Below are positions 12,450 through 26,400 of a stretch of 64,000 bases of DNA, piece by piece; position 1 is the stretch's first letter; each line of letters starts with the position of its first letter. The translations under genes and the position numbers were made by a program. This stretch comes from Ferrovibrio sp. (GTDB lineage: Bacteria; Pseudomonadota; Alphaproteobacteria; Ferrovibrionales; Ferrovibrionaceae). Under the pieces are notes generated by a model. The model was not told the DNA's origin. It saw nothing but the letters and a program-made list of their open reading frames with translations, and searched no databases. The DNA is taken from contig NZ_PEKV01000005.1 in NCBI RefSeq assembly GCF_002796975.1, positions 166,839-230,838 on the forward strand. The letters are read 5' to 3'.

Positions 12450-13178
12450 ATGAGCGCCTATCCCCAGATCCGGTCCTTCGGCGATACCGGCTTCAGTGTC
12501 GAATTCGGCGAGGGCATCGACCGTGGCATCAATGCCATGGTGATGGCGCTGCATGCCGCACTGACCGACACGCGTCCGGCTGGTCTGGTGGAAACCATCC
12601 CGTCTTTCCGCGCCCTGCTGGTGCAATACGATCCGCTCGCCACCAGCCGCGCCGATCTCGAAAGCCATGTGCGCGGGTTGCTCGACGGGCTGAAGCCGCA
12701 GCAGCACGCCGGTCGGCTCTGGCGTTTGCCGGTCTGCTATGCCGAGGAGTTTGCGCCCGATCTGGCCGAGGTCGCCGAACGCTGCAAGGTCACGCCGCAG
12801 AAGGTGATCGAGATTCATACCGGCGGACGTTATTTCGTCTACATGCTCGGCTTCATGCCGGGCCTCGCCTATATGGGCGGGCTCGATGCCGTGCTGCATC
12901 TGCCGCGCCGGTCCTCGCCGCGCACCAAGGTTCCCCAAGGCTCGGTCGCCATCGCCGAATCGATGACGACAATCTACCCCTGGGAAAGCCCGGGCGGCTG
13001 GCATCTGCTGGGCCGCACGCCGCTCAAACTGTTCGATGCCGCGCGCGAAGAACCGATCCTGCTCGGCGCCGGCGATGAAGTGACTTATGTCGCGGTCTCT
13101 GCAGATGATTATGCCGCGATGCTGCACCAGGTTGAGGATGGCTCGTTCGACTATGCTGCGCTCAGGGTGAAAGCATGA
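12450..13178 (+). CDS. pxpB: 5-oxoprolinase subunit PxpB
   Basis: 242 residues, KipI/allophanate hydrolase subunit 1 family. Conserved GGRYFVYMLGFMPGLAYMGGLD (about 125-148), SSPRTKVPQGSVAIAESMTTIYPWESPGGWHLLGRTP (about 153-190) and the C-terminal GDEVTYVAVSADDY segment. PxpABC hydrolyses the lactam 5-oxo-L-proline to L-glutamate at the expense of ATP; B and C form the ATP-dependent activation part. Stop and the pxpC start overlap by four bases (ATGA). Older databases name it allophanate hydrolase or KipI, but the presence of all three pxp genes side by side supports oxoprolinase. Confidence 0.93.
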   Translation: MSAYPQIRSFGDTGFSVEFGEGIDRGINAMVMALHAALTDTRPAGLVETIPSFRALLVQYDPLATSRADLESHVRGLLDGLKPQQHAGRLWRLPVCYAEEFAPDLAEVAERCKVTPQKVIEIHTGGRYFVYMLGFMPGLAYMGGLDAVLHLPRRSSPRTKVPQGSVAIAESMTTIYPWESPGGWHLLGRTPLKLFDAAREEPILLGAGDEVTYVAVSADDYAAMLHQVEDGSFDYAALRVKA

Positions 13179-14224
13179 GCGCCCGCTTCCTCGATGTCGT
13201 CGCGCCCGGGCTGATGACCTCGGTGCAGGATCTCGGCCGGCTCGGTGCGCAGGCGCTCGGCATGCCGGTGGCCGGCGCTACCGATGCGATTGCGCTGCGG
13301 CTCGCCAACGCGGTGGTCGGCAATCCGGAAAATACCGGCGCGCTGGAAATCGGCTATCTCGGGCCGACGCTGGTGGCGGCTGCTGACGGCGTGCGCGTCG
13401 TGCTTGGCGGCAAGGCGAAACTCACCCTGCAGCCCGCCGATGGCAGCGAGGCGCGACCCGCAAAACCCTGGCGTTCGCTGCTGCTGAAACGCGGCGATAA
13501 ACTCACCATCGGTGCGGTGGACGAGGGCGGTGTCGCCTATCTGGCGGTCGCCGGCGGGTTTGCGATTCCCGCCTTCATGAGCAGCCTGTCGACCTATATG
13601 CGCTCCGGGCTGGGCGGCTTCGAGGGTCGCGCGCTGAAAGCCGGCGACAGTCTGCCGCTCAATACGATTGCCGCCGAAGGCGACGAACGCGAACTCGCCG
13701 ATGAGATTGACTATGGCTCCGGTCCGATCCGCGTGGTGCTCGGCCCGCAGGAAGACCGCTTCACGCAAAAGGGCATCGAGACCTTCCTGTCGGCCACCTA
13801 CAGCATCACCAAGGAAGCCGACCGCATGGGCATCCGGCTCGAAGGCGAGACGGTGGAACACACGCGCGGCGCCGATATTGCCTCCGAAGGCGTCGTCACC
13901 GGATCGATCCAGGTGCCGGGCAACGGCAAGCCGATCATCCTGATGGCGGATCGCCAGACCACCGGCGGCTATACCAAGATCGCCACGGTGATTTCCGCCG
14001 ATCTCGCCCGCGTTGGCCGCATGAAGCCCGGCGATACGCTCAGCTTCACGGCTGTCGAGGTCGCCGCCGCCGAAGCCGCGCGCCGCGAACAGGAAAAGAT
14101 GGTACGCCGCCTGATCGAGGGCATCCGCACGGCACCGCCCGATGTCACTCTCGACCTGAACGCGCTATATACGCAGAATCTGATCAGCGGCGCAGTCGAT
14201 GCCCCCAGCGGGCACTGGCGCTAG
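13175..14224 (+). CDS. pxpC: 5-oxoprolinase subunit PxpC
   Basis: 349 residues, KipA/allophanate hydrolase subunit 2 (biotin-dependent carboxyltransferase-like) family. N-terminal VVAPGLMTSVQDLGRLGAQALGMPVAGATDAIALRLANAVVGNPENTGALEIGYLGPTL is the family signature; YLAVAGGFAIPAFMSSLSTYMRSGLGGFEGRALKAGDSLPL and VTGSIQVPGNGKPIILMADRQTTGGYTKIATVISADLARVGRMKPGD are further diagnostic blocks. Works with PxpB and PxpA in ATP-dependent opening of 5-oxoproline. Translationally coupled to pxpB and 12 bases ahead of pxpA. Confidence 0.93.
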   Translation: MSARFLDVVAPGLMTSVQDLGRLGAQALGMPVAGATDAIALRLANAVVGNPENTGALEIGYLGPTLVAAADGVRVVLGGKAKLTLQPADGSEARPAKPWRSLLLKRGDKLTIGAVDEGGVAYLAVAGGFAIPAFMSSLSTYMRSGLGGFEGRALKAGDSLPLNTIAAEGDERELADEIDYGSGPIRVVLGPQEDRFTQKGIETFLSATYSITKEADRMGIRLEGETVEHTRGADIASEGVVTGSIQVPGNGKPIILMADRQTTGGYTKIATVISADLARVGRMKPGDTLSFTAVEVAAAEAARREQEKMVRRLIEGIRTAPPDVTLDLNALYTQNLISGAVDAPSGHWR

Positions 14225-14236
14225 GGAGACTGTCTC

Positions 14237-15010
14237 ATGACGACGAAGACTAACCTGAACAGCGATCTCGGCGAAAGCTACGGTGCCTGGACCATGGGCG
14301 ACGATGCGGCGATGCTCGGCGTCGTCGGCACCGCCAATGTCGCCTGCGGCTTCCATGCCGGTGACTGGAGCGTGATGCAGGCCACCGTGGCGGAGGCCGT
14401 GAAGAATGGCGTGTCGATCGGCGCGCATCCCTCCTATCCCGATCTGCAGGGTTTCGGCCGCCGGCCGATGACCATGAGCAACAGGGAAGTCGAAGCGCTG
14501 ATGGCCTACCAGATCGGCGCGCTGATGGGCGTGGCGGCGACGAAGGGCGGCAAGGTCACGCATGTGAAGCCGCATGGCGCCATCAACAACAAGGCTGCCA
14601 CCGACATGGATCTCGCCATGGCGCTGGCGCGTGGCATCGCCGGCGTGTCGAAAGACCTGATCTTCCTGGCGCCGGCCGGCTCGGCCATGGTGACGGCGGC
14701 CGCCAAGGCCAACCTGCCGGTGGCGCAGGAAGTCTTTGCCGACCGCAATTACGATGACGATGGCAACCTGGTGCCGCGCGGCCAGCCGCATGCCATGGTG
14801 CATGACAATGACGAGGCACTGAAGAATGTGCTGCGCATGGTGCAGGAACGCGCCATCGTCTCGGTCACCGGCAAGCGCATCCCCTGCAATGTCGATTCGA
14901 TCTGCGTGCATGGCGACAGCGCCGGCGCGGTCTCCATGGCGCGCCACATCCGTACCGGGCTGGAGCAGGCCGGCGTGAAACTGGTCACGCTGCCGGAGAT
15001 GCTGGAGTAA
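14237..15010 (+). CDS. pxpA: 5-oxoprolinase subunit PxpA
   Basis: 257 residues, LamB/YcsF family, full length. Signature LNSDLGESYGAWTMGDDAAMLGVVGTANVACGFHAGD at the N-terminus, IGAHPSYPDLQGFGRRPM, VTHVKPHGAINNKAATD, EVFADRNYDDDGNLVPRGQPHAMVHD and VDSICVHGDSAGAVSMARHIR; the His and Asp residues of these blocks line the active site of this TIM-barrel-like protein. PxpA carries the lactam-hydrolysing step with PxpBC. Last gene of the operon; a leading GGGAGA ribosome site is present. Cytoplasmic; product L-glutamate enters central nitrogen metabolism. Confidence 0.95.
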   Translation: MTTKTNLNSDLGESYGAWTMGDDAAMLGVVGTANVACGFHAGDWSVMQATVAEAVKNGVSIGAHPSYPDLQGFGRRPMTMSNREVEALMAYQIGALMGVAATKGGKVTHVKPHGAINNKAATDMDLAMALARGIAGVSKDLIFLAPAGSAMVTAAAKANLPVAQEVFADRNYDDDGNLVPRGQPHAMVHDNDEALKNVLRMVQERAIVSVTGKRIPCNVDSICVHGDSAGAVSMARHIRTGLEQAGVKLVTLPEMLE

Positions 15011-15105: not shown

Positions 15106-16728
15106 GTGATAAGCCGCAGCAGCAGTCGTTCCGCCACTATTCTCGCGTTGGTAGTTGGTTGTGCGGTCACTACGTCTGCTGTCGCGCAGAGCGCCGCCGA
15201 GCCCAAATGGGGCCCTCATATCGATCTTGAGGCCAAGCCGGGCACGAAACGCTCGCTGAGCGAAGCCGATCTGTTCATTCCCGTCGCGCAGTCCGCCGAC
15301 ACCCTGTTGTTCGCCAATCTGCGCCTGCGCATGGACGATAACGACAGCAACGAGGGCAATTACGGCCTTGGTGTCCGCCACATGCTGGAGAGCGGCTGGA
15401 ATCTGGGCGCCTACGGTTATTTCGATCGGCGCCGCACCGAATACGACAACCACTTCAACCAGGTGACCCTCGGTGTCGAAGCGCTGTCGCAGGACTGGGA
15501 TCTGCGCGCCAACTATTACGCGCCGGTCGGGCGGCGCAGCCACAATATTGACAGCCTGAACACCGCCGAAGTCTCCGGCACCACGGTGATCTTCCGCGGC
15601 GGCGAGGAACGCAGCATGGGCGGTTTCGATGCGGAGGTCGGCCGGCGCGTGCCGCTGTTCGACGCATCTGCCGACCGGCAGTTCCGCATCTTTGGCGGCG
15701 CCTACCATTTCAGCGAAAGCGGTGTGGAGGATATCAGCGGCCCGCGCGCCCGTGCCGAACTCACCTTCGACAGCGTGCCGTATCTGTGGGAAGGCTCGCG
15801 CTTCAGCATCGGTGCCGAATGGCAGCATGACGATCCGCGCGGCAGCCAGGGCTTCCTCACCGCCCGCCTGCGCATACCTTTTCAGGTATACGGACGCCCT
15901 GCCTCCACGTTGACGCCGATGGAACGCCGCATGGCCGATCCCGTCGTGCGCGATATCGACGTGGTCAGCCAGGCCGGCCAGTTCAGCGCGCCGGAGACGG
16001 CGACTCAGCTGGCGAATGGCTCGACCTTCACCGTACTGAACAGCGCGACCACGGCGGGTGACGATCTCGATGATGTCGTCACGGCGGCCGGCAATAATTC
16101 GACGGTCATTCTGGCCGGTGCCTTCCAGACGACGGGTCTCAATGCAGTCAGCCTGGCCTTCAACCAGACCCTGACCGGATTCGCCACGGTGCGCAGTGCC
16201 TCTGGTCGTACGGCTGTCGTGAATACCGGCGCGTCGATCAATGGCACCAATATGACCACCACGACCGTACAACTCAATGCTGGTGGCCGGCTGGAAGGCG
16301 TGACGGTGACGGGTGCCTACAGCGGCGGCGCCGCTGGCCGCGTGGTGCAGGTGGCAGACGGCTCCACCGGCGTGCATATCGAGAATAGCATCATCACCGG
16401 AACGCAGAGCGGCGCGGCCGTGGGCAACGTCGTGACCATCGGTCAGAACACCTCGGTTACTCTGCGCAACAACACCATCACGGCGAGCGGCAGCGGCACT
16501 GCCACCACCATGACGGCGCTGTTTGCCAGCAGTTCAAACACGACGCTGACCTTTACCGGCAACACGATCAGTGCGACCGGCGGCACTACGAACAACATTG
16601 TCAATTTCGGTGCCGGCGTCACCACCATCACCGGCGACTCGACCGGCAATATCCGTGGCAGTGGCAACTGTGTCGGTACGCCGGCCAGCGGCAGCATCGG
16701 CTTCACCAACGGCACGACCTGCCCGTAA
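15106..16728 (+). CDS. Inverse-autotransporter-like outer-membrane protein with repetitive passenger
   Basis: 540 residues from a GTG start with GGGGGAA seven bases upstream. A signal peptide (to AVAQS, about residue 29) is followed by some 240 residues of alternating aromatic/polar strands (ADTLLFANLRLRMDD, EGNYGLGVRHMLESGWNLGAYGYFDRRRTEYDNHFNQVTLGVEALSQDWDLRANYYAPVG, FRIFGGAYHF, SRFSIGAEWQHDDPRGSQGFLTARLRIPF) that match the inverse autotransporter beta-barrel of the intimin/invasin type. After a linker, residues about 310-520 are Thr/Asn/Gly-rich with right-handed beta-helix-like turns (GVHIENSIITGTQSG, VTLRNNTITASGSG, LTFTGNTISATGG). The only mature cysteines lie in the last 20 residues (GNCVG...TTCP) and could form a disulfide. 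Barrel first, passenger last is the inverse order. Exported surface role inferred; ligand unknown. Confidence 0.75.
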   Translation: MISRSSSRSATILALVVGCAVTTSAVAQSAAEPKWGPHIDLEAKPGTKRSLSEADLFIPVAQSADTLLFANLRLRMDDNDSNEGNYGLGVRHMLESGWNLGAYGYFDRRRTEYDNHFNQVTLGVEALSQDWDLRANYYAPVGRRSHNIDSLNTAEVSGTTVIFRGGEERSMGGFDAEVGRRVPLFDASADRQFRIFGGAYHFSESGVEDISGPRARAELTFDSVPYLWEGSRFSIGAEWQHDDPRGSQGFLTARLRIPFQVYGRPASTLTPMERRMADPVVRDIDVVSQAGQFSAPETATQLANGSTFTVLNSATTAGDDLDDVVTAAGNNSTVILAGAFQTTGLNAVSLAFNQTLTGFATVRSASGRTAVVNTGASINGTNMTTTTVQLNAGGRLEGVTVTGAYSGGAAGRVVQVADGSTGVHIENSIITGTQSGAAVGNVVTIGQNTSVTLRNNTITASGSGTATTMTALFASSSNTTLTFTGNTISATGGTTNNIVNFGAGVTTITGDSTGNIRGSGNCVGTPASGSIGFTNGTTCP

Positions 16729-16800: not shown

Positions 16801-17451
16801 ATGACCAAGTCGAAATCCGCCAAGCCCACACAGAAAAAAAGCCGTCAGCCGGATGTAACGCGGCGCAACATTCTCGATGCGGCGCTTTATGAATTCGCCG
16901 CCAAGGGTCTGGCCGGCGCGCGGGTCGACGAGATCGCCGCGCGTTCGGGCTCCAACAAGCGCATGATCTACGAGTATTTCGGCAACAAGGAGGGCCTCTG
17001 GCTCACCGTGCTGGAAAACGCGTATACGCGGATGCGCGAGGAGGAACATGCCATCGACGTGGCGCGCATGAAGCCGGAAGACGGCATGCGCTACCTGATG
17101 GAGTTCAATTTCAAATTCTGTTCGCGCAATCCCGAATTCATCGCGCTGCTGAATGCCGAGAACCTGCACAAGGCCAGCTATCTGAAGGATTCCAAAAAGA
17201 TCCGCGAGCTCTACACGCCGCTGCTGGTGGTGATTACCGATCTGCTGCAGCGCGGCCAGAAAGACGGCGTGTTCCGCAAAGGGGTCGATCCGGTCGAGCT
17301 TTACACCACGATTGCAGCGCTGGGTTTCTTTTACTTTTCCAACATCCATACGCTGTCGACCATTTTCGGCCGCAACCTGCTGTCGCCGAAACAGCAGAAA
17401 ACCCGCCTCGACCATTCCATGGAAGTGGTGCTGGGCTACCTGCGGCCTTGA
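16801..17451 (+). CDS. TetR/AcrR family transcriptional regulator
   Basis: 216 residues. A Lys-rich N-terminal tail (MTKSKSAKPTQKKSRQP) precedes the TetR helix-turn-helix (RRNILDAALYEFAAKGLAGARVDEIAARSGSNKRMIYEYFGNKEGLW, residues about 21-67). The C-terminal all-helical domain (FNFKFCSRNPEFIALLNAEN ... FFYFSNIHTLSTIFGRNL) is the type common in regulators of carboxylate or sugar-acid degradation. A hairpin (CCGTTGCCC...GGGCGACGG, 16761-16787) abuts its ribosome site. The same 16-bp dyad upstream of the TctC gene and of the catabolic operon at 20.8 kb makes it the probable repressor of both. Confidence 0.93.
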   Translation: MTKSKSAKPTQKKSRQPDVTRRNILDAALYEFAAKGLAGARVDEIAARSGSNKRMIYEYFGNKEGLWLTVLENAYTRMREEEHAIDVARMKPEDGMRYLMEFNFKFCSRNPEFIALLNAENLHKASYLKDSKKIRELYTPLLVVITDLLQRGQKDGVFRKGVDPVELYTTIAALGFFYFSNIHTLSTIFGRNLLSPKQQKTRLDHSMEVVLGYLRP

Positions 17452-17580: not shown

Positions 17581-18600
17581 ATGCAAGGCAAGCTTGCTAT
17601 TCGTATCGCTGTGGCCGCTTTCGCGGTCGGTACCCTGGGCCTCGTCGCCCAGCCGGCCGACGCGCAGACCTGGAAGCCGACCAAGCCGATCACCGTAATC
17701 GTGCCCTGGGCCGCCGGCGGCTCCACCGATCAGGTGATCCGTGTCACCGCCGCCGAGCTCGAAAAGGCGCTCAACCAGAAGGTCGTTGTCGTCAACCAGC
17801 CGGGCGGCTCGGGCTCGATCGGCACCAAGAGCGTGCTGGAAGGCAACAAGGACGGCTACACCTGGGCTTCGGGCGCCGCGAAGGATATCGGTTCCTATGC
17901 CGTGTCTGGTCTGCTCGACACCCAGGCGAAGGACTGGGATTTCTACCTGACTGTCGCGAATCAGGCGGTGATCAGCGTCAATCCGAACACGCCCTACAAG
18001 AGCGTTGCCGATCTGCTGGCGGCGATGAAGGCCAAGCCGGGCCACGTGTCGTTCGCCACGGCCGGCGTGAATTCATCGGGCCATTACGGTTCGGAGGCGC
18101 TGTCGCGCGCGGCGGGCGCCACCTACAAGCACGTGTCCTATGACGGCGGCAATCCGGCAGTGATTGCTACGGTTTCGGGCGAAACCGAAGTGACCAGCCA
18201 GCTGGGCGTCGAGCAGATCGAGATGATCCGCGGCAAACGCCTGCGTCCGCTGGCCGTGCTGGCCGACAAGCCGCTGGTGGTTGACGGCGTTGCGCCGATC
18301 GAGCCGATCACCAAGACGCTGCCGAAATTCCGCACCGAGGCCAACTATTTCGGCATCTTCGTGCCCAAGGGTGTGCCGGCGGAGGTGACCGCCACGCTGA
18401 ACAAGATCTGGGCGGAGAAGATTTCCAAGTCGGAAGCGCTGAAGAAATATGCCTCCGACAAGGGCGCGATCTTCGATCCGCAGTATGGCGAAGCCGCCAA
18501 GAAGGCCTCTTTCCCGGCCATCCAGGGCGCTGCCTGGATCCTGCAGGAAGGCGGCAAGGCCAAGGTCAATCCGGAAACGCTCGGCATCCCGAAGCCGTAA
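17581..18600 (+). CDS. Tripartite tricarboxylate transporter substrate-binding protein (TctC/Bug family)
   Basis: 339 residues with a signal peptide ending near ADAQT (about residue 30). TWKPTKPITVIVPWAAGGSTDQVIRVTAAELEKALNQKVVVVNQPGGSGSIGTKSVLEGNKDGYTW is the Bug-family N-terminal signature, with the PWAAGGSTD loop that contacts a ligand carboxylate; ADLLAAMKAKPGHVSFATAGVNSSGHYGSEALSRAAGATYKHVSYDGGNPAV is the second conserved block. It delivers a carboxylate-bearing ligand in the periplasm to the TctAB permease encoded next. GGAGGAG ribosome site seven bases before ATG. The ligand is unknown; the linked catabolic genes suggest a sugar acid or cyclic polyol derivative (inference). Confidence 0.95.
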   Translation: MQGKLAIRIAVAAFAVGTLGLVAQPADAQTWKPTKPITVIVPWAAGGSTDQVIRVTAAELEKALNQKVVVVNQPGGSGSIGTKSVLEGNKDGYTWASGAAKDIGSYAVSGLLDTQAKDWDFYLTVANQAVISVNPNTPYKSVADLLAAMKAKPGHVSFATAGVNSSGHYGSEALSRAAGATYKHVSYDGGNPAVIATVSGETEVTSQLGVEQIEMIRGKRLRPLAVLADKPLVVDGVAPIEPITKTLPKFRTEANYFGIFVPKGVPAEVTATLNKIWAEKISKSEALKKYASDKGAIFDPQYGEAAKKASFPAIQGAAWILQEGGKAKVNPETLGIPKP

Positions 18601-18616
18601 GCCGGAGTTAACAGGA

Positions 18617-18649
18617 CGGCCGCCTGGCTTGATACAAGCCGGGCGGCCG
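18617..18649 (+). terminator. Strong hairpin between the TctC and TctB genes
   Basis: CGGCCGCC-T-GGCTT-GATAC-AAGCC-G-GGCGGCCG forms a 13-bp stem with one internal mismatch, followed by ATTTGCTTTT. It starts 17 bases after the TctC stop and the next gene starts 22 bases later, so it is intercistronic and probably gives partial termination or protects the upstream message. Confidence 0.75.
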
Positions 18650-18670
18650 ATTTGCTTTTCAGGAGTCGTG

Positions 18671-19210
18671 ATGATGGACCAGACCCCAGCCCAGCCTGCC
18701 ACCGCCGAAGAAGCCACGGTTTCGCCGCGCGCCGATTTCTGGTCTGCCTGGGTCTGGATCGCGCTGGGCCTCGCGATTCTCGTCATCAGCCTGAAGATGG
18801 ATCGCCTCGAACGTTTCCAGGCCAGCATCTACACGGCGCCGGGCCTGGTACCGGGCCTGCTCGGCATTGCCATCGCCTTCATGGGCGCGATCCTGATGTT
18901 TCGCGCGGTGCGCGGCGGTGCGCTGCAGACGCGGCCGCCCCGCCGCCTCGTGCTACGCGACCACTGGCGCCTGATTTTCAGCCTCGGCCTGTCGCTGGTC
19001 TATGCACTGGTCATCGTTGCCAGCGCGCTGCCGTTCTGGCTGGTCACGGCAGTCTATATCGCCACTTTCGTCATCGTTTTCCAGTATGCCGAGCGCCGCG
19101 CCGCCGGACAGGTGCCGCGCGGCATCGCGATTGCTGTCGTGCATGGCCTGCTGGCCGGCTGGGCAATCCAGTATATCTTTGAAGAACTCTTCCTCGTTCG
19201 TCTGCCGTAA
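18671..19210 (+). CDS. Tripartite tricarboxylate transporter TctB family small permease
   Basis: 179 residues starting MMDQTPAQPATAEEA; the track ORF begins inside the TctC gene and was trimmed to the ATG that follows AGGAG by five bases. Four hydrophobic stretches (AWVWIALGLAILVISL, PGLLGIAIAFMGAILMF, LIFSLGLSLVYALVIVASALPFWLVTAVYIATFVIVF, GIAIAVVHGLLAGWAIQYIF) match the TctB layout. Partner of TctA in a sodium- or proton-driven importer. Eighteen bases separate it from the TctA gene. Confidence 0.88.
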   Translation: MMDQTPAQPATAEEATVSPRADFWSAWVWIALGLAILVISLKMDRLERFQASIYTAPGLVPGLLGIAIAFMGAILMFRAVRGGALQTRPPRRLVLRDHWRLIFSLGLSLVYALVIVASALPFWLVTAVYIATFVIVFQYAERRAAGQVPRGIAIAVVHGLLAGWAIQYIFEELFLVRLP

Positions 19211-19228
19211 GTAAGAAGGCGCGCATCC

Positions 19229-20749
19229 ATGTTTGACGGCCTGCTCGGTTTTGCCCATTCGATCTGGAGCTTCTCCAGCCCGGAAACCATTTTCTATGCG
19301 CTGGTTGCCTCGCTGGTCGGCCTGATCATCGGTGCGCTGCCGGGCCTCACCGCCACCATGGGTGTGGCACTGATGACGACGCTGACGCTGAAGCTGCCGT
19401 CCGACCAGGCGCTGCTGATCCTGATCTGCACTTACGTCGGCGCCATCTACGGCGGCAGCCGCAGCGCCATCCTGCTCAATATTCCAGGTACGCCGGCTTC
19501 AGCTGCCTCCTGCCTCGACGGACATGCGCTGGCCAAGCAGGGTCTCGCCGGCCGTGCCATGGGCATTGCCACTTCGGGCTCGATCCTCGGCACCTGGATC
19601 GGCATGTTCTTCCTGGCGCTGTTCACGCCGATCCTGGGCGAAATGGCGCTGAAATTCGGCGCCTATGAATTCTTCTGGCTTGCCGTCTTCGGTGTGGTGA
19701 TCTCGGGCAACCTCACCGGCACCGATCCGCTGAAAGGCTGGATCGCCGGTTTCATCGGGCTGTTCATCGCCGCCATCGGTCAGGAGGGCATGTATGCCTA
19801 CGACCGCTTCACCTTCGGCGTGCACGACCTGTCGGGCGGCATCGCGCTGATCCCGGCGCTGGTCGGCGTCTTCGGCTTTGCCGAGGTGCTGAACGTGATG
19901 AAGGACAAGCCGCAGAAATTCATCATCAACACCTACGACACCGTGATCCCCAAGATTGCGGACGTGCTGCAATACTGGCGCACGGTTATTCGTTCCGGCC
20001 TGATCGGCACCTTCATCGGCATCGTGCCGGGCGTGGGCGAGGATGTCGCGGCCTGGAGTTCCTATGCTGCTGCGCGCCGCGCCAGCAAGGAAAAGGAGAA
20101 GTTCGGTAAGGGTTCGGTCGAAGGCCTGATGGCTGCCGAAACCGGCGACAATGCCTGCGTGCCGGGTGCGGTGATCCCCGTGCTGACCCTGGCAGTACCC
20201 GGTTCCGCTCCGGCGGCCGTGCTGCTGGCCGCCATGCTGATCCATGGCGTGCGTCCCGGGCCGCTGATCATGGTGGAGAGTCCCTCTTTCGTTTACGACG
20301 TCGTGGCGATGATGTTCTTCGCTTCCATCGGCATCCTGATCTATGGCCTGACGCTGACCAGGCTGCTGGTCAAGATCCTGCTGGTGCCGCGCGCGCTGGT
20401 CATGCCGGTGATCTTCGTGCTCTGCTCCGTCGGCTCCTACGCCATTGCCTCGCGACCCTTCGACATCCTGGTCATGCTGGTCTTCGGCATCATCGGCCTG
20501 GCGATGCGCGGCCTGAACTATCCGATGGCGCCGCTGGTGCTCGGCATCGTGCTGGGCGACCTGCTCGACAAGAGCCTGCGCCGTGGCCTGAGCCTGTCCG
20601 ATGGCGATCTCACGCCGTTCTTCGGACGTCCGATCGCCTTCGTCATCTTCCTGCTGGTGCTGTTCACCGTCCTGATGAATGTGCCGTTCGCCCGGCGCGT
20701 CATGGGACAGGGCACGGCGCTGCTGCTGCGCCCGTTCCGGCGCGCCTGA
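19229..20749 (+). CDS. Tripartite tricarboxylate transporter TctA family large permease
   Basis: 506 residues, standard size, about 12 transmembrane segments. Signature GLIIGALPGLTATMGVALMTTLTLKLPSDQALLILICTYVGAIYGGSRSAILLNIPGTPASAASCLDGHALAKQGLAGRAMG at residues about 32-112 and the repeated-half motif IGTFIGIVPGVGEDVAAWSSYAAARRASKEKEKFGKGSVEGLMAAETGDNACVPGAVIPVLTLAVPGSAPAAVLLAAMLIHGVRPGP near 260-350. Forms the translocation channel with TctB and receives substrate from TctC. Confidence 0.95.
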   Translation: MFDGLLGFAHSIWSFSSPETIFYALVASLVGLIIGALPGLTATMGVALMTTLTLKLPSDQALLILICTYVGAIYGGSRSAILLNIPGTPASAASCLDGHALAKQGLAGRAMGIATSGSILGTWIGMFFLALFTPILGEMALKFGAYEFFWLAVFGVVISGNLTGTDPLKGWIAGFIGLFIAAIGQEGMYAYDRFTFGVHDLSGGIALIPALVGVFGFAEVLNVMKDKPQKFIINTYDTVIPKIADVLQYWRTVIRSGLIGTFIGIVPGVGEDVAAWSSYAAARRASKEKEKFGKGSVEGLMAAETGDNACVPGAVIPVLTLAVPGSAPAAVLLAAMLIHGVRPGPLIMVESPSFVYDVVAMMFFASIGILIYGLTLTRLLVKILLVPRALVMPVIFVLCSVGSYAIASRPFDILVMLVFGIIGLAMRGLNYPMAPLVLGIVLGDLLDKSLRRGLSLSDGDLTPFFGRPIAFVIFLLVLFTVLMNVPFARRVMGQGTALLLRPFRRA

Positions 20750-20764
20750 CCCACGAGAGCGGAA

Positions 20765-20809
20765 TTGACGATACCCGCCTTTCCACGCTATAAGTAACTG
20801 ACTAGTTAC
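20765..20809 (+). promoter_or_regulatory. Promoter with overlapping TetR operator, copy 2, for the catabolic operon
   Basis: A -35 hexamer TTGACG (20765-20770), an 18-bp spacer and a -10 TATAAG (20789-20794) read as a sigma-70-type promoter. The dyad GTAACTGACTAGTTAC (20794-20809) begins at the last base of the -10 box, so a bound repressor would block initiation. The dyad differs at two positions from the copy at 17482-17497. Start of the first gene is 18 bp further on. Confidence 0.7.
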
Positions 20810-20827
20810 TTTACGGACTAGCTGACG

Positions 20828-21655
20828 ATGCGCATCTCGCTCTGCAATGAAGTTCTCAGCCCCCTGCCGTTTGCCGCGCAATGCGCGCTGGCGGCGGAAC
20901 TGGGCTATGACGGGCTGGAGATCGCGCCCTTCACGCTAAGCGACGATCCGCTGTCGCTGACCGCAGCCGAGCGCAAGGTGATCCGCCGCGCGGTGGAAGA
21001 GGCCGGGCTCGCCGTCACCGGCCTGCACTGGTTGCTGGTCACGCCCAAGGGGCTGTCCATCACCGAGACCGATCCGGCGGTGCGCCGTCGCACCCGCGAG
21101 ATGATGCAGGGCCTGTGCGATCTCTGCGCCGATCTGGGCGGTGCCTATCTGGTGCATGGCTCGCCCGCGCAGCGCCAGCTGCCCGACCGCGACATCCATG
21201 CCGCCAAGGGCTATGCGCTCGAAGCTTTCCGCTATGCCGCCCGCGCCGCCGAGAAGGCCGGCGTGATCTACTGCGTCGAGCCGCTGTCGCGCCGCGAGAC
21301 CAACTTCATCAACACGGTGGCCGAGGCGATCGGCGTGGTGGAAGGCATCGGCAGCAACAGCTTCCGCACCATGATCGACTGCAGCGCCGCCGGCCTGGCG
21401 GAAGAGCAAAGCGTAGCTGAACTGATCTCGCAATGGCTGCCCAGCGGTCTGATCGCGCATGTGCAGGTCAACGACCCGAACCGCAAGGGCCCCGGCCAGG
21501 GTGAGATGGATTTCGTGCCGATCATCGCCGCGTTGAGGCAGCATGGCTATGGCGGCGATCTCGGCGTCGAGCCCTTCGTCTACGAACCCGATGGCCCCGG
21601 CGTCGCCGCGCATTCGATCCGATACTTGCGCAATCTGCTGGGAGCGGCGGCATGA
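20828..21655 (+). CDS. Sugar phosphate isomerase/epimerase family protein (xylose isomerase-like TIM barrel)
   Basis: 275 residues. MRISLCNEVLSPLPFAAQCALAAELGYDGLEIAPFTLS is the typical first strand and helix of the AP-endonuclease-2/xylose-isomerase-like superfamily; AYLVHGSPAQRQLP, VIYCVEPLSRRETNFINTVAEAIGVVEGIG (metal-ligand Glu in VEPL), MIDCSAAGLAEEQ, IAHVQVNDPNRKGPGQGEMDFVPIIAAL and LGVEPFVYEPDG (second Glu) follow the known order of metal ligands. Members interconvert or dehydrate sugars, sugar acids and inosose-type cyclitols. First gene of the five-gene operon; its stop overlaps the next start by four bases. Confidence 0.85.
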   Translation: MRISLCNEVLSPLPFAAQCALAAELGYDGLEIAPFTLSDDPLSLTAAERKVIRRAVEEAGLAVTGLHWLLVTPKGLSITETDPAVRRRTREMMQGLCDLCADLGGAYLVHGSPAQRQLPDRDIHAAKGYALEAFRYAARAAEKAGVIYCVEPLSRRETNFINTVAEAIGVVEGIGSNSFRTMIDCSAAGLAEEQSVAELISQWLPSGLIAHVQVNDPNRKGPGQGEMDFVPIIAALRQHGYGGDLGVEPFVYEPDGPGVAAHSIRYLRNLLGAAA

Positions 21656-23079
21656 AGGCCGAAGCGCCCGCCTTTGCCATCGGCGATATCCAGCTGTTTG
21701 AACGGCCGGTCACGCTGCGGCTGCCCTTCCGCTTCGGCGTGGTGACGCTCACCCATGCGCCGCAGGCCTATGCGCGCCTGCGTATCACGCTACCCGATGG
21801 CCGCAGCGCCTGGGGTTCGGCGGCCGAACTGATGGCGCCGAAATGGTTCGACAAGAATCCCGCACTCTCCAATGAGCAGAATTTCGATCAATTGCGTCGC
21901 AGCCTGCTCAATGCCGTGAATGCTTACGCCGCCGATTCCACGCCGCGCACCGCTTTCGGCCATTCCGCCGCCCATCATGCCACCCTGGTGCAGCAGGGCG
22001 CGGGCGAGGGACTGAATGCGCTGGTGGTCTCCTATGGCGCGGCGCTGCTGGATCGCGCCGTGATCGACGCGCTCTGTCGCTTACGTGGTGTGCCCTTCGT
22101 GGCCTTGCTGGGCAAAAACCAGTTCGGTATCGAAGCTGCGACGCTCACGCCGGATCTTGCCGGTTTCGATCTCGACAACTGGCTCGGCGGGCTGAAAGCC
22201 GGGCGTTCTATTGCCGCGCGGCATACCGTCGGCCTGATCGATCCGCTGCGTGAAAGCGATGTCGCTGCACCGCGACTGAACGACGGCCTGCCGGAAAGCC
22301 TGGAGGGCGCGGTGGCGCAATACGGCCATCGCTGGTTCAAGCTCAAGGTCGGCGGCAATGTCGAAAACGATCTGGCGCGCCTGCAGGGGATTGCAGCTGT
22401 ACTCGATCAGTCGAGCGAGCCCTATCGCGCCAGCCTGGATGGCAACGAGCAGTATGACGATGTCAACGGCATCGCCGCGCTCTGGGCGGCGATGAAGGAC
22501 GACCGCGCACTGCGCCGGCTGATCTCCTCGATCATTTACATCGAGCAGCCGATCAAGCGTGCTGCCGCATTGGCCCAGCCGGTGGAGAAACTCTCGGCCG
22601 AGATTCCATTGATCGTCGACGAATCGGATGCCGATTACGACGTCTTCCCCAAGGCGCGCGAGTTGGGTTATCGCGGCATCTCGTCGAAAACCTGCAAGGG
22701 CGTCTATCGCGCCATCCTTAATGCGGCGCGGTGTTCGCATTGGGGTAACGGTTACTTTGTGACCGGCGAGGATCTGACCTGCCAGGCCGGTCTTGCCGTG
22801 CAGCAGGATCTCGCCCTGGTGGCGGCCCTGGGTCTCGGCGATGTCGAGCGTAACGGCCATCATTACGTCGATGGCTTCGGCACGGCACCGCAGGCGGAGC
22901 AGGACGCATTCCTTGCCGCCCATCCAGACCTCTATCACCGCGATGTAAAGAGCGGCCGCGTGCGACTCAATATCCGCAGCGGCAATCTCGACCTGCGCAG
23001 CATCATGGACGCCACGGCCTTCGGGTCTGGGGCCGAACCAGATTGGGGCAATCTTGCCCCCCTGACTTTGAATTCTTGA
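21652..23079 (+). CDS. Enolase-superfamily (mandelate racemase/muconate lactonizing enzyme-like) protein
   Basis: 475 residues, longer than the usual 370-400. Recognisable barrel motifs: HRWFKLKVGG with KxK at 230-232 (second strand base), SLDGNEQYDD with D263 and E266, IYIEQP with E298, LIVDESDADYD with D323/E324 as metal ligands, and GISSKTCKG with K346 as opposite-face base. The order K-x-K, D, E, D/E, K matches the MLE-like subgroup. Roughly 60 extra residues (AYAADSTPRTAFGHSAAHHATLVQQGAGEGLNAL) sit between the capping domain and the barrel. Likely a dehydratase, racemase or cycloisomerase acting on an acid sugar; substrate not identifiable. Seventeen bases before the oxidoreductase gene. 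Confidence 0.75.
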   Translation: MKAEAPAFAIGDIQLFERPVTLRLPFRFGVVTLTHAPQAYARLRITLPDGRSAWGSAAELMAPKWFDKNPALSNEQNFDQLRRSLLNAVNAYAADSTPRTAFGHSAAHHATLVQQGAGEGLNALVVSYGAALLDRAVIDALCRLRGVPFVALLGKNQFGIEAATLTPDLAGFDLDNWLGGLKAGRSIAARHTVGLIDPLRESDVAAPRLNDGLPESLEGAVAQYGHRWFKLKVGGNVENDLARLQGIAAVLDQSSEPYRASLDGNEQYDDVNGIAALWAAMKDDRALRRLISSIIYIEQPIKRAAALAQPVEKLSAEIPLIVDESDADYDVFPKARELGYRGISSKTCKGVYRAILNAARCSHWGNGYFVTGEDLTCQAGLAVQQDLALVAALGLGDVERNGHHYVDGFGTAPQAEQDAFLAAHPDLYHRDVKSGRVRLNIRSGNLDLRSIMDATAFGSGAEPDWGNLAPLTLNS

Positions 23080-23095
23080 ATAAGGACAGAACAGA

Positions 23096-24250
23096 ATGAG
23101 CAAGGATATCCGTCTCGGCATCATCATGAACGGCGTCACCGGACGCATGGGCATGAACCAGCATCTGATCCGTTCGATCTGCGCGATCCGCAAGGATGGC
23201 GGCGTGGTGCTGAAGAACGGCCGCCGGGTGATGCCAGATCCGATCCTGGTCGGCCGCAACCTCGACAAGGTGGCGCGTCTGGCCAAGGCGCACGGCATCG
23301 AACGCTATACCGACGATCTAGATGCGGCGCTGAAGAACAAGGACGACACGCTGTTCTTCGATGCCGCCACCACCCAGGCGCGCGCCGGCCTGCTGAAAAA
23401 GGCGATGGCTGCCGGCAAGGACATCTACTGCGAGAAGCCGACTGCCGAGAAGCTCTCGGTCGCGCTCGACCTGGTGAAGGCCGCCAAGAAGTACAAGGTC
23501 AAGCATGGCGTGGTGCAGGATAAGCTGTTCCTGCCCGGCCTGCAGAAGATCAAGATGCTGATCGACAGCGGCTTCTTCGGCGAAATCCTCTCGGTGCGTG
23601 GCGAGTTCGGCTACTGGGTTTTCGAGGGCGACTGGCAGCAGGCGCAGCGTCCCAGCTGGAACTACCGCTACAAGGACGGCGGCGGCATCATCCTCGACAT
23701 GCTGTGCCATTGGCGCTACGTGCTCGACAACCTGTTCGGCGAAGTCGAGAGCGTGTCCTGCCTCGGCGCGACGCATATCAAGAAACGCTGGGACGAGAAC
23801 GGCAAGCCGTACAAGGCCGATGCCGATGACGCGGCCTACGCCACCTTCCAACTCAAGAGCGGCGTGATCGCGCAGATCAACTCCTCCTGGGTCACGCGCG
23901 TGCGCCGCGACGATCTCGTCACCTTCCATGTCGACGGCACGCTGGGTTCGGCGGTCGCCGGCCTGACCAGCTGCCGCACCCAGGCCCGCGTCAACACGCC
24001 GAAGCCGGTGTGGAACCCCGATGTGCCGCAGACCATCGACTTCTTCGACACCTGGCAGGAAGTCCCCGACAACCAGGTCTACATGAATGGTTTCCGCGCC
24101 CAGTGGGAAATGTATATCCGCCATCTGGTCGACAACGAGCCGTTCAAGTGGACGCTGCTCGAAGGCGCCAAGGGCGTGCAGCTCGCCGAAGCTGGCCTGA
24201 AGAGCTGGAAGGAACGCCGCTGGATCGACCTGCCGGAATTGAAGGCGTAA
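23096..24250 (+). CDS. Gfo/Idh/MocA family NAD(P)-dependent oxidoreductase
   Basis: 384 residues. N-terminal nucleotide-binding fold (LGIIMNGVTGRMGMNQHLIRSI; the usual GxGxxG is replaced by NGVTGRMG) and the family-defining CEKPTAEKL at 112-120, in which K114 is the conserved catalytic Lys. The C-terminal alpha/beta domain includes GGGIILDMLCHWRYVLDNLFGEVESV with the conserved D-x-x-x-H pattern. These enzymes oxidise hydroxyl groups of sugars, inositols or sugar acids. Ribosome site AAGGACAGAAC; five bases separate it from the DUF993 gene. Confidence 0.92.
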   Translation: MSKDIRLGIIMNGVTGRMGMNQHLIRSICAIRKDGGVVLKNGRRVMPDPILVGRNLDKVARLAKAHGIERYTDDLDAALKNKDDTLFFDAATTQARAGLLKKAMAAGKDIYCEKPTAEKLSVALDLVKAAKKYKVKHGVVQDKLFLPGLQKIKMLIDSGFFGEILSVRGEFGYWVFEGDWQQAQRPSWNYRYKDGGGIILDMLCHWRYVLDNLFGEVESVSCLGATHIKKRWDENGKPYKADADDAAYATFQLKSGVIAQINSSWVTRVRRDDLVTFHVDGTLGSAVAGLTSCRTQARVNTPKPVWNPDVPQTIDFFDTWQEVPDNQVYMNGFRAQWEMYIRHLVDNEPFKWTLLEGAKGVQLAEAGLKSWKERRWIDLPELKA

Positions 24251-24254
24251 CCAC

Positions 24255-25418
24255 ATGACGACGCTCAACCTGCCTGCCGGCGCCGGCAAGCTGGCGCCCT
24301 ATACGCTGAAACAGCCCAAGGCGTTTCCTGCGGCCAAGCCGCCGTTCAGCCGCGTCGCTTATGCGGCGGCGCATGTGGTGGCGGATACGCTGGCCGATCA
24401 CGATCCCTGGCTGACCCCTGCCATCGACTGGGATCGCACGATTGCGTTTAGGAAACATCTCTGGTCGCTCGGCTTCGGCGTGGCGGAAGCCATGGATACC
24501 GCGCAGCGCGGCATGGGCCTCGACTGGAAGGATGCGCTGGAACTGGTGCGTCGCTCGCTCGATGCGGCGAAGGACGTGCCGGGCGCCACGGTGGCGTCGG
24601 GTGCCGGCACCGATCATCTGGCGCCGGGGCCGGATGTCACCATCGACAAGGTGATCGCGGCCTATGAGGAACAGTGCGGCGCCATCGAGAAGCTCGGTGG
24701 CCGCATCATCCTGATGGCGAGCCGCGCGCTCACCGCCGCGGCCAAATCGCCGGACGATTACGCGAAGGTCTACAACCGTATCCTCAGTCAGGTGAAGCAG
24801 CCGGTGATCCTGCACTGGCTCGGCGAGATGTTCGATCCGGCACTCACCGGCTACTGGGGCAATGGCGACCATCTCAAGGCGATGGACACCTGCCTCGATG
24901 TGATCAGGGCCAATGCGGCCAAGGTCGACGGCATCAAGATTTCCTTGCTGGACAAGGACAAGGAAATTCTCATGCGCCGCAAGTTGCCGAAAGGTGTGCG
25001 CATGTATACCGGCGACGACTTCAACTATGCCGAACTGATCGCTGGCGATTCCGAAGGCTATTCCGACGCGCTGCTCGGCATTTTCGATGCCATCGCGCCG
25101 GCGGCTTCGGCGGCGCTCGGCGCGCTGACGCGCGGCGACGAGAAGACCTTCCACGACCTGCTCGCGCCGACCGTGCCGCTGTCGCGCCATATCTTCAAGA
25201 CACCGACGCGCTTCTACAAGACTGGCGTGGTCTTCATGGCCTATCTCAATGGCCATCAGGATCACTTCGTCATGGTCGGCGGCCAGCAGAGCACGCGTTC
25301 GGCCCAGCATCTGGCCGAACTGTTCCGTCTGGCCGATGCGGCCGGGTTGCTCAGCGATCCGGATCGCGCCGCCAGCCGCATGAAGGCGGTGCTGGCGACG
25401 CACGGGATTGCCGCATGA
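24255..25418 (+). CDS. DUF993 family, dihydrodipicolinate synthase/aldolase-like protein
   Basis: 387 residues. The protein has the layout of DUF993: VAYAAAHVVADTLADHDPWLTPAIDWDRTIAFRKHLWSLGFGVAEAMDTAQRGMGLDWKDALELVRRSL at the N-terminus, VASGAGTDHL, LGGRIILMASRALTAAAKSPDDYAKVYNRILSQVKQPVILHWLGEMFDPALTGYWG and VDGIKISLLDKDKEI, in which the Lys of GIKISL corresponds to the Schiff-base Lys position of the DapA/NAL aldolase barrel. Expected to cleave a keto-sugar acid or related intermediate by a retro-aldol reaction; not assayed to my knowledge. Overlaps the last operon gene by four bases. Confidence 0.8.
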   Translation: MTTLNLPAGAGKLAPYTLKQPKAFPAAKPPFSRVAYAAAHVVADTLADHDPWLTPAIDWDRTIAFRKHLWSLGFGVAEAMDTAQRGMGLDWKDALELVRRSLDAAKDVPGATVASGAGTDHLAPGPDVTIDKVIAAYEEQCGAIEKLGGRIILMASRALTAAAKSPDDYAKVYNRILSQVKQPVILHWLGEMFDPALTGYWGNGDHLKAMDTCLDVIRANAAKVDGIKISLLDKDKEILMRRKLPKGVRMYTGDDFNYAELIAGDSEGYSDALLGIFDAIAPAASAALGALTRGDEKTFHDLLAPTVPLSRHIFKTPTRFYKTGVVFMAYLNGHQDHFVMVGGQQSTRSAQHLAELFRLADAAGLLSDPDRAASRMKAVLATHGIAA

Positions 25419-26257
25419 GCCAGCGTAAACCCGGCCCGCTCTCGCTCAACACCGCCACGGTGAGGGAGCAATGGTCGCTGCAGCAGTGTATCGAGGGTTG
25501 CGCACGCCACGGCATCACCGGCATCTCGCCCTGGCGCGACAAGCTGGCGGACTACACCACGGCCAAGGCCGCGAAGCATATCCGCAAGGTTGGCCTCACC
25601 GTGACCGGACTCTGCCGCGGCGGCATGTTCCCGGCTGCCGATGCTGCCGGGCGTCAGGCGGCGATCGAGGACAACAAGCGCGCGATTGATGACGCGGCCG
25701 CGTTGAATGCCCAGTGCCTGGTGCTGGTGGTGGGTGGCATGCCGGCCGGGTCTCGCGACCTCGCGGGGGCCAGACAGCAGGTGCAGGACGGCATCGCCGC
25801 CGTGCTGGAACATGCGCGCGCTGCCAATGTGCCGCTCGCCATAGAGCCGTTGCATCCGATGTATGCGGCCGACCGTGCCTGCGTGAACACCGTGGCGCAG
25901 GCGCTCGATATCTGCGATGCACTCGGTTCCGGCGCGAACGACCGCCACCTCGGTGTCGCCGTCGATGTCTATCATGTCTGGTGGGACCCGACTCTTGCGG
26001 CGCAGATCCAGCGCGCCAGCAAGCGCGTGCTGGCTTTCCACGTTTGCGACTGGCTGGTGCCGACCACTGACCTGCTGCTGGATCGCGGCATGATGGGCGA
26101 TGGCGTGATCGACATTCCGGCGATTCGCGCCATGGTCGAAGGCGTCGGTTATGACGGCTTCTGCGAGGTCGAGATCATGTCGACCAACAACTGGTGGAAG
26201 AAGGATGCCGATGCGGTGTTGAAGACCTGCATCGAGCGGCATGCCACTGTCATATAG
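25415..26257 (+). CDS. Second sugar phosphate isomerase/epimerase family protein
   Basis: 280 residues from MSQRKPGPLSLNTATVREQWSLQQCIEGCARHGITGISPW. The track ORF extends 247 codons upstream through the DUF993 gene in another frame and was trimmed. The TIM-barrel landmarks are LVLVVGGMPAGSRDL, VPLAIEPLHPMYAADRACVNTVAQALDICDALG (Glu ligand in IEPLHP), GVAVDVYHVWWDP (Asp/His), VLAFHVCDWLVPTTDLLLDRGMMGDGVIDIPAIRAMVEGVGYDGFCEVEIMS (His, Glu). Same superfamily as the first gene of the operon but clearly diverged, so two separate steps are likely. Its stop codon lies inside a dispersed palindrome. Confidence 0.87.
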   Translation: MSQRKPGPLSLNTATVREQWSLQQCIEGCARHGITGISPWRDKLADYTTAKAAKHIRKVGLTVTGLCRGGMFPAADAAGRQAAIEDNKRAIDDAAALNAQCLVLVVGGMPAGSRDLAGARQQVQDGIAAVLEHARAANVPLAIEPLHPMYAADRACVNTVAQALDICDALGSGANDRHLGVAVDVYHVWWDPTLAAQIQRASKRVLAFHVCDWLVPTTDLLLDRGMMGDGVIDIPAIRAMVEGVGYDGFCEVEIMSTNNWWKKDADAVLKTCIERHATVI

Positions 26258-26400
26258 TGCAGCGTCACCCCGGGCTTGACCCGGGGGCCCATTTTTACCT
26301 GCACTATAAAAAAGGAAATGGGATACCAGCACGTCGCGCTTTGCGCGACAGTATATGTAAGGCGGCAAAGCCGCCGGGCGCGGGTATGACGGAAGTGAGG
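26254..26400. repeat. Composite dispersed repeat after the catabolic operon
   Basis: ATAGTGCAG (26254-26262) and CTGCACTAT (26299-26307) are perfect inverted repeats enclosing the smaller palindrome CCCCGGGCTTGACCCGGGGG. Two further hairpins follow: GTCGCGCTTTGCGCGAC and GGCGGCAAAGCCGCC. The whole block looks like a mobile intergenic element rather than coding sequence. It overlaps the stop codon of the preceding gene and could act as terminator before ureD. Confidence 0.7.

Follow-up and report, generated by a model that had tools for sequence, protein, structure and literature searches.

A Recurrent Ferrovibrio Operon Encoding a DUF993 Protein, Very Probably for the Catabolism of a Sugar-like Acid or Cyclitol

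Results and Discussion

The operon described here lies within a 64,000-nucleotide stretch of DNA from Ferrovibrio sp. (the window; contig NZ_PEKV01000005.1, positions 166,839 to 230,838). It encodes the tripartite tricarboxylate transporter (TTT) proteins TctC, TctB and TctA, two PF01261 barrels (AP1 and AP2), an enolase-superfamily protein (ENO), a Gfo/Idh/MocA oxidoreductase (GFO) and a DUF993 protein. Together with related gene sets that recur across many alphaproteobacteria, it very probably represents a real pathway for a sugar-like acid or cyclitol. The operon is composed of two joined modules, A (GFO-DUF993-AP2) and B (TctCBA-AP1-ENO), and is not a single fixed set. Our preferred reading, which we rate slightly below an even chance, is that A and B form part of a catabolic system of three modules that acts on a polyhydroxylated carboxylate or a compound of the cyclitol type. 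Support is drawn from the operon spacing, the hairpin at the operon end, co-occurrence across genomes, the intact catalytic sets and the fold and lysine of the DUF993 protein. All of the enzymes fall into known superfamilies; the chemistry of the DUF993 family may be new.

An earlier sequence-only reading of this DNA had described an uptake and breakdown cluster, and this description is supported; no curated model or paper was found that assigns it. The same reading had treated the genes as one fixed set, which is contradicted by the separability of modules A and B and by the presence of a third module elsewhere in the genome.

Modules A, B and C

Gene neighborhoods were compared at the best 80 of 424 DUF993 loci, and since this set is rich in Roseomonas, genome-level samples were added. 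Locus counts were obtained by translated BLAST. GFO is located immediately 5' of DUF993 in 67 of the 77 loci with sufficient flank, and AP2 is found no more than 6 kb from DUF993 in 59 of the same 77. At the 47 loci flanked by 9 kb or more on either side, ENO is near DUF993 in 22, AP1 in 17 (always together with ENO) and a TetR homologue in 33.

The genome sample consisted of 190 alphaproteobacterial genomes, in which the presence of ENO was scored at E below 1e-50. DUF993 is present in 17 and ENO in 15 of these genomes. Both are present in 12, spanning 11 families, against 1.3 expected (p = 8e-13, calculated without a phylogenetic model; p 7e-12 with the source genome left out). Co-occurrence across genomes had been chosen beforehand as the refutation test for the sequence-only reading, which it survived. 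A control, a DapA-family (sugar-acid-type) paralogue from the source genome, gave no clear association in the 190 genomes (p 0.06-1). A chance neighborhood was rejected because the co-occurrence tests were significant and the control gene was not.

Modules A and B adjoin in Ferrovibrio and in genomes G450, G558, G520, G575, G577 and G578. In G574, G452 and G004 they are separated, and there module B comes with TTT genes of its own and one more Gfo gene. In Sinorhizobium meliloti, AP2 (SMc04130), DUF993 (SMc04132) and an annotated oxidoreductase (SMc04133) have near-consecutive locus numbers. At one locus (L170, genome G545) the genes AP1-ENO-GFO-AP2 form one run, and no DUF993 was found anywhere in that genome; here the DUF993 step has been lost or replaced in nature.

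Module C contains a TetR regulator, an NMT1-type ABC transporter, an epimerase-like protein, a GNAT protein and a second DapA-like aldolase, c7. It shares an operon with module A in many relatives. The source genome carries it on another contig (C25:80001-100000, locus L201), with the NMT1-type binding protein, permease and ATPase included. Orthologues of c7 (E below 1e-100) are present in 15 of the 190 genomes, 12 of them in common with DUF993 (p 8e-13) and 10 with ENO (p 6e-10). Since Tyr151, Lys179 and the Thr loop are retained, c7 looks like an ordinary 2-keto-acid lyase. In the epimerase-like protein of this module (L079:1291-2334 and relatives), YxxxC stands in place of the YxxxK of short-chain-type epimerases, and 30 sequences show conservation of both residues.

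The DUF993 Protein

The DUF993 protein matches PF06187 with 629.5 bits (gathering score 24) over positions 1-382 of the 382-position profile. Its predicted model has a predicted local distance difference test (pLDDT) score of 92.1, and its best structural match is 4dnh, at 72% identity. The Foldseek matches after 4dnh are DHDPS (E 8e-12, TM 0.78 by target) and then, more weakly, sialic-acid lyase structures. The protein is a TIM barrel of the DapA/NAL superfamily kind. Residue conservation for this and the other enzymes was computed on 33 to 142 homologues per protein, taken from fetched loci. Lys228, on strand 6 (224-230), is invariant in 142 sequences and aligns with the GVK of DapA from the same genome; the profile alignment is weak (probability 11%, E 0.0027) and is supported by the fold. 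The conserved residues cluster at the barrel strand ends, with D81-T82-A-Q84-R85 after strand 2, H187-W188 on strand 5 and D254-D255 after strand 7.

With DapA/NAL proteins (PF00701) the DUF993 protein shares the TIM barrel, the strand-6 lysine and a GDD after strand 7. It differs in forming its own Pfam family, in being about 90 residues longer and in its pocket: the catalytic Tyr of DapA strand 5 is not present, its place being taken by His187-Trp188, and the GTTGE carboxylate (Thr-Thr) loop of DapA is replaced by DTAQRG. Both replacements are near-invariant in the family. The DapA fold and the position of the Schiff-base lysine support the description of the protein as aldolase-like, a putative assignment that the sequence-only reading had also made. 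The loss of the Tyr and of the Thr-Thr pocket argues for imine chemistry on a ketone other than a 2-keto acid, as judged from the sequence and the model.

The sequence-only reading had further given DUF993 the retro-aldol cleavage of a dehydrated acid. This assignment fares less well, because the residues that bind a 2-keto acid are absent from DUF993 and are present in c7. It is more likely that the module C aldolase carries out the final retro-aldol cleavage and that DUF993 performs another imine-based step. We tentatively propose, at clearly less than an even chance, that DUF993 would represent a new class of imine-forming lyase, in which the DapA lysine is kept and the 2-keto-acid pocket is exchanged for His-Trp and Asp-Thr-Ala-Gln-Arg. 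Such an enzyme would act on a keto-sugar, keto-cyclitol or 3-keto acid supplied by the adjacent dehydrogenase. If this is correct, the DUF993 route would be an undescribed and widespread form of catabolism in alphaproteobacteria, rhizobial plasmids, Burkholderiales and actinobacteria.

Companion Enzymes

The E-D-H-E metal ligand set of PF01261 barrels is present in both AP1 and AP2. In AP1 the residues E151, D184, H211 and E248 are invariant (33 sequences), and a psicose epimerase is matched with an E value of 7.6e-17. In AP2 the metal set is E144, D184, H209 and E251/E253, and the residues E144, H147, D184, H209 and E253 are conserved at 98% or more (123 sequences). Solved orthologues of AP2 are 3ju2 (SMc04130), 3qc0 and 7vpf, for which no functional test was found.

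ENO contains invariant K230, K232, D263, D323 and K346 and a 98% conserved E298 (54 sequences). These residues follow the pattern of the MLE subgroup, with KxK on strand 2, D/E/D metal ligands and a Lys on strand 6, the strands being taken from the model (pLDDT 93.9). Enolase-superfamily folds account for all of the 50 best Foldseek matches listed, at 12-18% identity. No match to any curated NCBIfam function-level family was obtained. The atypical insertion noted in the sequence-only reading is real but is not peculiar to this protein; it is a family-wide feature, the 54 homologues being 459-493 residues long.

The unusual cofactor loop that had been noted in GFO is confirmed. It reads GIIMNGVTGRMG, that is G13-VT-G16-RM-G19, a GxxGxxG in place of the canonical GxGxxG, and it is kept in the family, with T15 and R17 retained in at least 98% of 121 sequences. 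The same alignment shows conservation of E113-K114, which includes the EKP lysine, and of D201 and H205 (D-x3-H). The solved orthologue is 3oqb (615 bits). Because the catalytic residues expected for their superfamilies are conserved, all five enzymes look like working enzymes rather than decayed relatives.

Comparison with Known Systems

In the myo-inositol pathway (IolG, IolE, IolO), a Gfo dehydrogenase is likewise combined with PF01261 enzymes. However, GFO scores 73.1 bits against a cut-off of 355 for inositol 2-dehydrogenase IolG (TIGR04380), and AP1 and AP2 score 96.4 and 49.2 against 300 for the 5-keto-L-gluconate epimerase IolO (NF041099). No protein matched IolE, and IolB, IolC and IolD are absent from the window operon, as judged with Pfam and NCBIfam profiles.

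The levoglucosan operon lgdA-lgdB1-lgdB2-lgdC and the O-glycoside eliminase operon of Agrobacterium (PMC7676230, PMC10628242) resemble the window operon in having a Gfo-type oxidoreductase with two PF01261 metal barrels, and chemistry beside a ketone is likely in each case. The described sets differ in having neither an enolase-superfamily protein nor DUF993. Levoglucosan dehydrogenase LgdA (NF052479) is among the top NCBIfam leads for GFO, at 64.9 bits against a cut-off of 650. Membership in the levoglucosan and inositol pathways was rejected because the scores are far under the curated cut-offs.

With the MLE (Lys/Lys) subgroup of the enolase superfamily, ENO shares the motifs given above; it differs in its length, against about 360-380 residues, in its low identity to the listed solved members and in matching no curated subfamily. 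Sugar-acid dehydratases usually have an MR-type acid-base pair; ENO instead has the MLE-type pattern. Non-phosphorylative sugar-acid pathways, which combine a dehydratase with a KDG-type aldolase, offer a further parallel in the acid transporter, the candidate acid dehydratase ENO, the candidate aldolase and, in some relatives, a glycerate kinase. The window operon differs by adding dehydrogenase and epimerase steps.

No substrate or pathway is named by the curated models, the solved relatives or the open-access papers covered (subscription journals were outside the search). The open-access literature neither names DUF993 nor discusses its structure, and a joint search of it for the whole gene set returned nothing relevant. 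The S. meliloti locus tags appear in open-access papers only in an expression table and a regulatory network. A DUF993 structure has been on deposit since 2012 (4dnh), and orthologues of GFO (3oqb) and AP2 (3ju2, 3qc0) are solved as well; the search turned up no function for any of these. The conserved dehydrogenase-containing core and the co-occurring ENO/TTT and second-aldolase modules make these orphan structures steps of one testable pathway, which is tractable in S. meliloti.

Proposed Pathway and Alternatives

In the proposed three-module system, uptake would be provided by the TTT transporter of the operon and by the NMT1-type ABC transporter of module C. GFO would oxidize a secondary hydroxyl to a ketone with NAD(P), and AP2, or AP1 on a second branch, would use a divalent metal for isomerization, epimerization or beta-elimination beside this ketone. 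The DUF993 protein would form an imine between Lys228 and the ketone of a substrate other than a plain 2-keto acid, followed by C-C or C-O cleavage. ENO would remove the proton alpha to the carboxylate and convert a sugar acid by dehydration into a 2-keto-3-deoxy acid; this product would be split by the module C aldolase, or by a GarL/HpaI-like aldolase in marine relatives. Several points weigh against this scheme. The gene set points to a substrate class only, a polyhydroxy acid or cyclitol being the best guess. The transporters vary by lineage (TTT, NMT1-ABC, CUT1 and Rbs-type), so that the modules may serve different substrates in each host. The gene run of G545 indicates that DUF993 is not always needed. 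In a second DUF993 lineage the partners of the gene are CoA genes and short-chain or GMC dehydrogenases, an arrangement for which the sugar-acid scheme does not account.

A serious rival, though an unlikely one at roughly half the weight given to the proposed scheme, would be deglycosylation by oxidation, elimination and hydration. An acidic glycoside would be oxidized at C3 by GFO, one of the two PF01261 barrels would then beta-eliminate the aglycone and the other would hydrate the keto-glycal, with ENO and DUF993 processing the released acid or sugar. Operons for levoglucosan and for O- and C-glycosides share the skeleton of a Gfo (or other) oxidoreductase with two PF01261 proteins (PMC7676230, PMC10066097, PMC10628242). 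E144, D184, H209 and E253 of AP2 parallel the metal set of CGE/OGE (Glu or His, Asp, His, Glu), and the conserved His147 lies three residues past E144, where His134 of AtOGE lies two past His132. The levoglucosan dehydrogenase lead for GFO and the GMC oxidoreductases that accompany DUF993 in the second lineage point the same way. However, this lead lies far below its cut-off, a second reductase is absent from the window operon, an uptake system of the TTT type suits small acids, ordinary epimerases have the E-D-H-E site as well and AP1 is nearest to psicose/tagatose epimerases. The assignment of the two barrels as isomerases or epimerases in the sequence-only reading is possible, but beside Gfo enzymes such barrels may also be beta-eliminases or hydratases, as in the levoglucosan and O-glycoside operons. 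The linear scheme of that reading (isomerase, GFO, dehydration by ENO, and DUF993 as a pyruvate-type retro-aldolase of a 2-keto-3-deoxy acid) appears a little less probable again. It accounts for the DapA fold and strand-6 lysine of DUF993 and for its co-occurrence with ENO, and glycerate kinase and aldehyde dehydrogenase neighbors fit a split into pyruvate and an aldehyde. It is opposed by the near-invariant His187-Trp188 and DTAQRG of DUF993, by the co-occurrence of a better aldolase with Thr loop, Tyr and Lys in module C, and by the 25 of 47 loci without ENO within 9 kb of GFO-DUF993-AP2. The least probable alternative, and a distinctly improbable one, is that two independent pathways for different substrates adjoin in Ferrovibrio by chance or through shared regulation. 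The modules are apart, each with its own transporter, in G574, G452 and G004, and DUF993 occurs without ENO in five of its 17 genomes and ENO without DUF993 in three of its 15. Against this view, co-occurrence is far above chance over 11 families, and unrelated genomes show the modules interleaved in various orders (S. meliloti pSymB, marine Rhodospirillaceae and the f8/g16 genomes that have NMT1 transporters).

Other Lineages

Rhizobial, Burkholderiales and actinobacterial plasmids carry more distant DUF993 genes, at about 50-60% identity. Varying subsets of short-chain or Gfo dehydrogenase, AP2, glycerate kinase, aldehyde dehydrogenase, GMC oxidoreductase, CoA transferase, acyl-CoA dehydrogenase and ETF genes are found next to them, and the sets often follow Rbs- or CUT1-type sugar ABC transporters. 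This reuse of a dehydrogenase-DUF993-AP2 core with varied feeders and drains suggests that the substrate of the core is a common intermediate and not the imported compound. In marine relatives a GarL/HpaI-like aldolase adjoins ENO and AP2, and in other lineages DUF993 is flanked by glycerate kinase and aldehyde dehydrogenases; these neighbors fit C-C cleavage to C3 fragments. In the second DUF993 lineage (L102, L162, L164, L165), CoA transferase, acyl-CoA dehydrogenase, ETF and glycerate kinase genes lie alongside, apparently serving a different downstream route.

Operon Organization and Flanking Genes

The features of the operon are listed in Table 1. All of the genes claimed in the sequence-only reading are present and intact on the + strand. 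The intergenic gaps from TctC to AP2 are, in order, 73, 18, 78, -4, 16, 4 and -4 bp, with ATGA overlaps at the AP1/ENO and DUF993/AP2 junctions, and because these gaps are so small the genes are predicted to form a single transcription unit. The TetR gene, 129 bp upstream of TctC, and both hairpins belong to this unit and had been overlooked. The hairpins were located by a consensus scan, which returned 11 terminator-like sites against 6.2 expected. The strong hairpin 3' of TctC could hold the level of the binding protein above that of the downstream genes.

Table 1. Features of the operon, with positions in the window
Feature	Position	Strand	Basis or remark
TetR-family regulator	16801..17451	+	PF17938/PF00440; presumed module regulator
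TctC, periplasmic binding protein of TTT	17581..18600	+	PF03401, 90 bits
Attenuator-like 15-bp hairpin with T-rich tail, TctC/TctB gap	18617..18649	+	consensus match only
TctB, small membrane subunit	18674..19210	+	PF07331, 31 bits vs cut-off 29.1
TctA, large membrane subunit	19229..20749	+	PF01970, 456 bits
AP1, PF01261 barrel, D-psicose/tagatose 3-epimerase-like	20828..21655	+	PF01261
ENO, enolase-superfamily protein, 475 residues, MLE-type Lys/Lys pattern	21652..23079	+	PF13378 (MR_MLE_C)
GFO, Gfo/Idh/MocA oxidoreductase, GxxGxxG cofactor loop	23096..24250	+	PF22725, PF02894, PF01408
DUF993 protein, DapA-fold lyase-like	24255..25418	+	PF06187
AP2, second PF01261 barrel	25415..26257	+	PF01261
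Terminator-like hairpin 3' of AP2, unit end	26268..26290	+	consensus match only

TctA, TctB and TctC all score above their Pfam cut-offs (PF01970, PF07331 and PF03401), which places them in the TTT family. Solved relatives of TctC include Bug proteins and a terephthalate-binding protein; naming the substrate through TctC was dropped because generic Bug-type proteins and terephthalate binders are all that these relatives offer. Among DUF993 loci, the nearest shows 97% identity, and two Ferrovibrio metagenome-assembled genomes are at 88-89%.

A gene for a 540-residue protein with an inverse-autotransporter (intimin/invasin-type) beta-domain (15106-16728) lies between the TetR gene and 5-oxoprolinase-like genes; some Ferrovibrio relatives have it in this place, and in others (L014, L015) it was not found. 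The 5-oxoprolinase-like genes (LamB/YcsF type, recognized by eye; 13175-15010) are located directly upstream, outside the operon unit, and are kept in some Ferrovibrio relatives.

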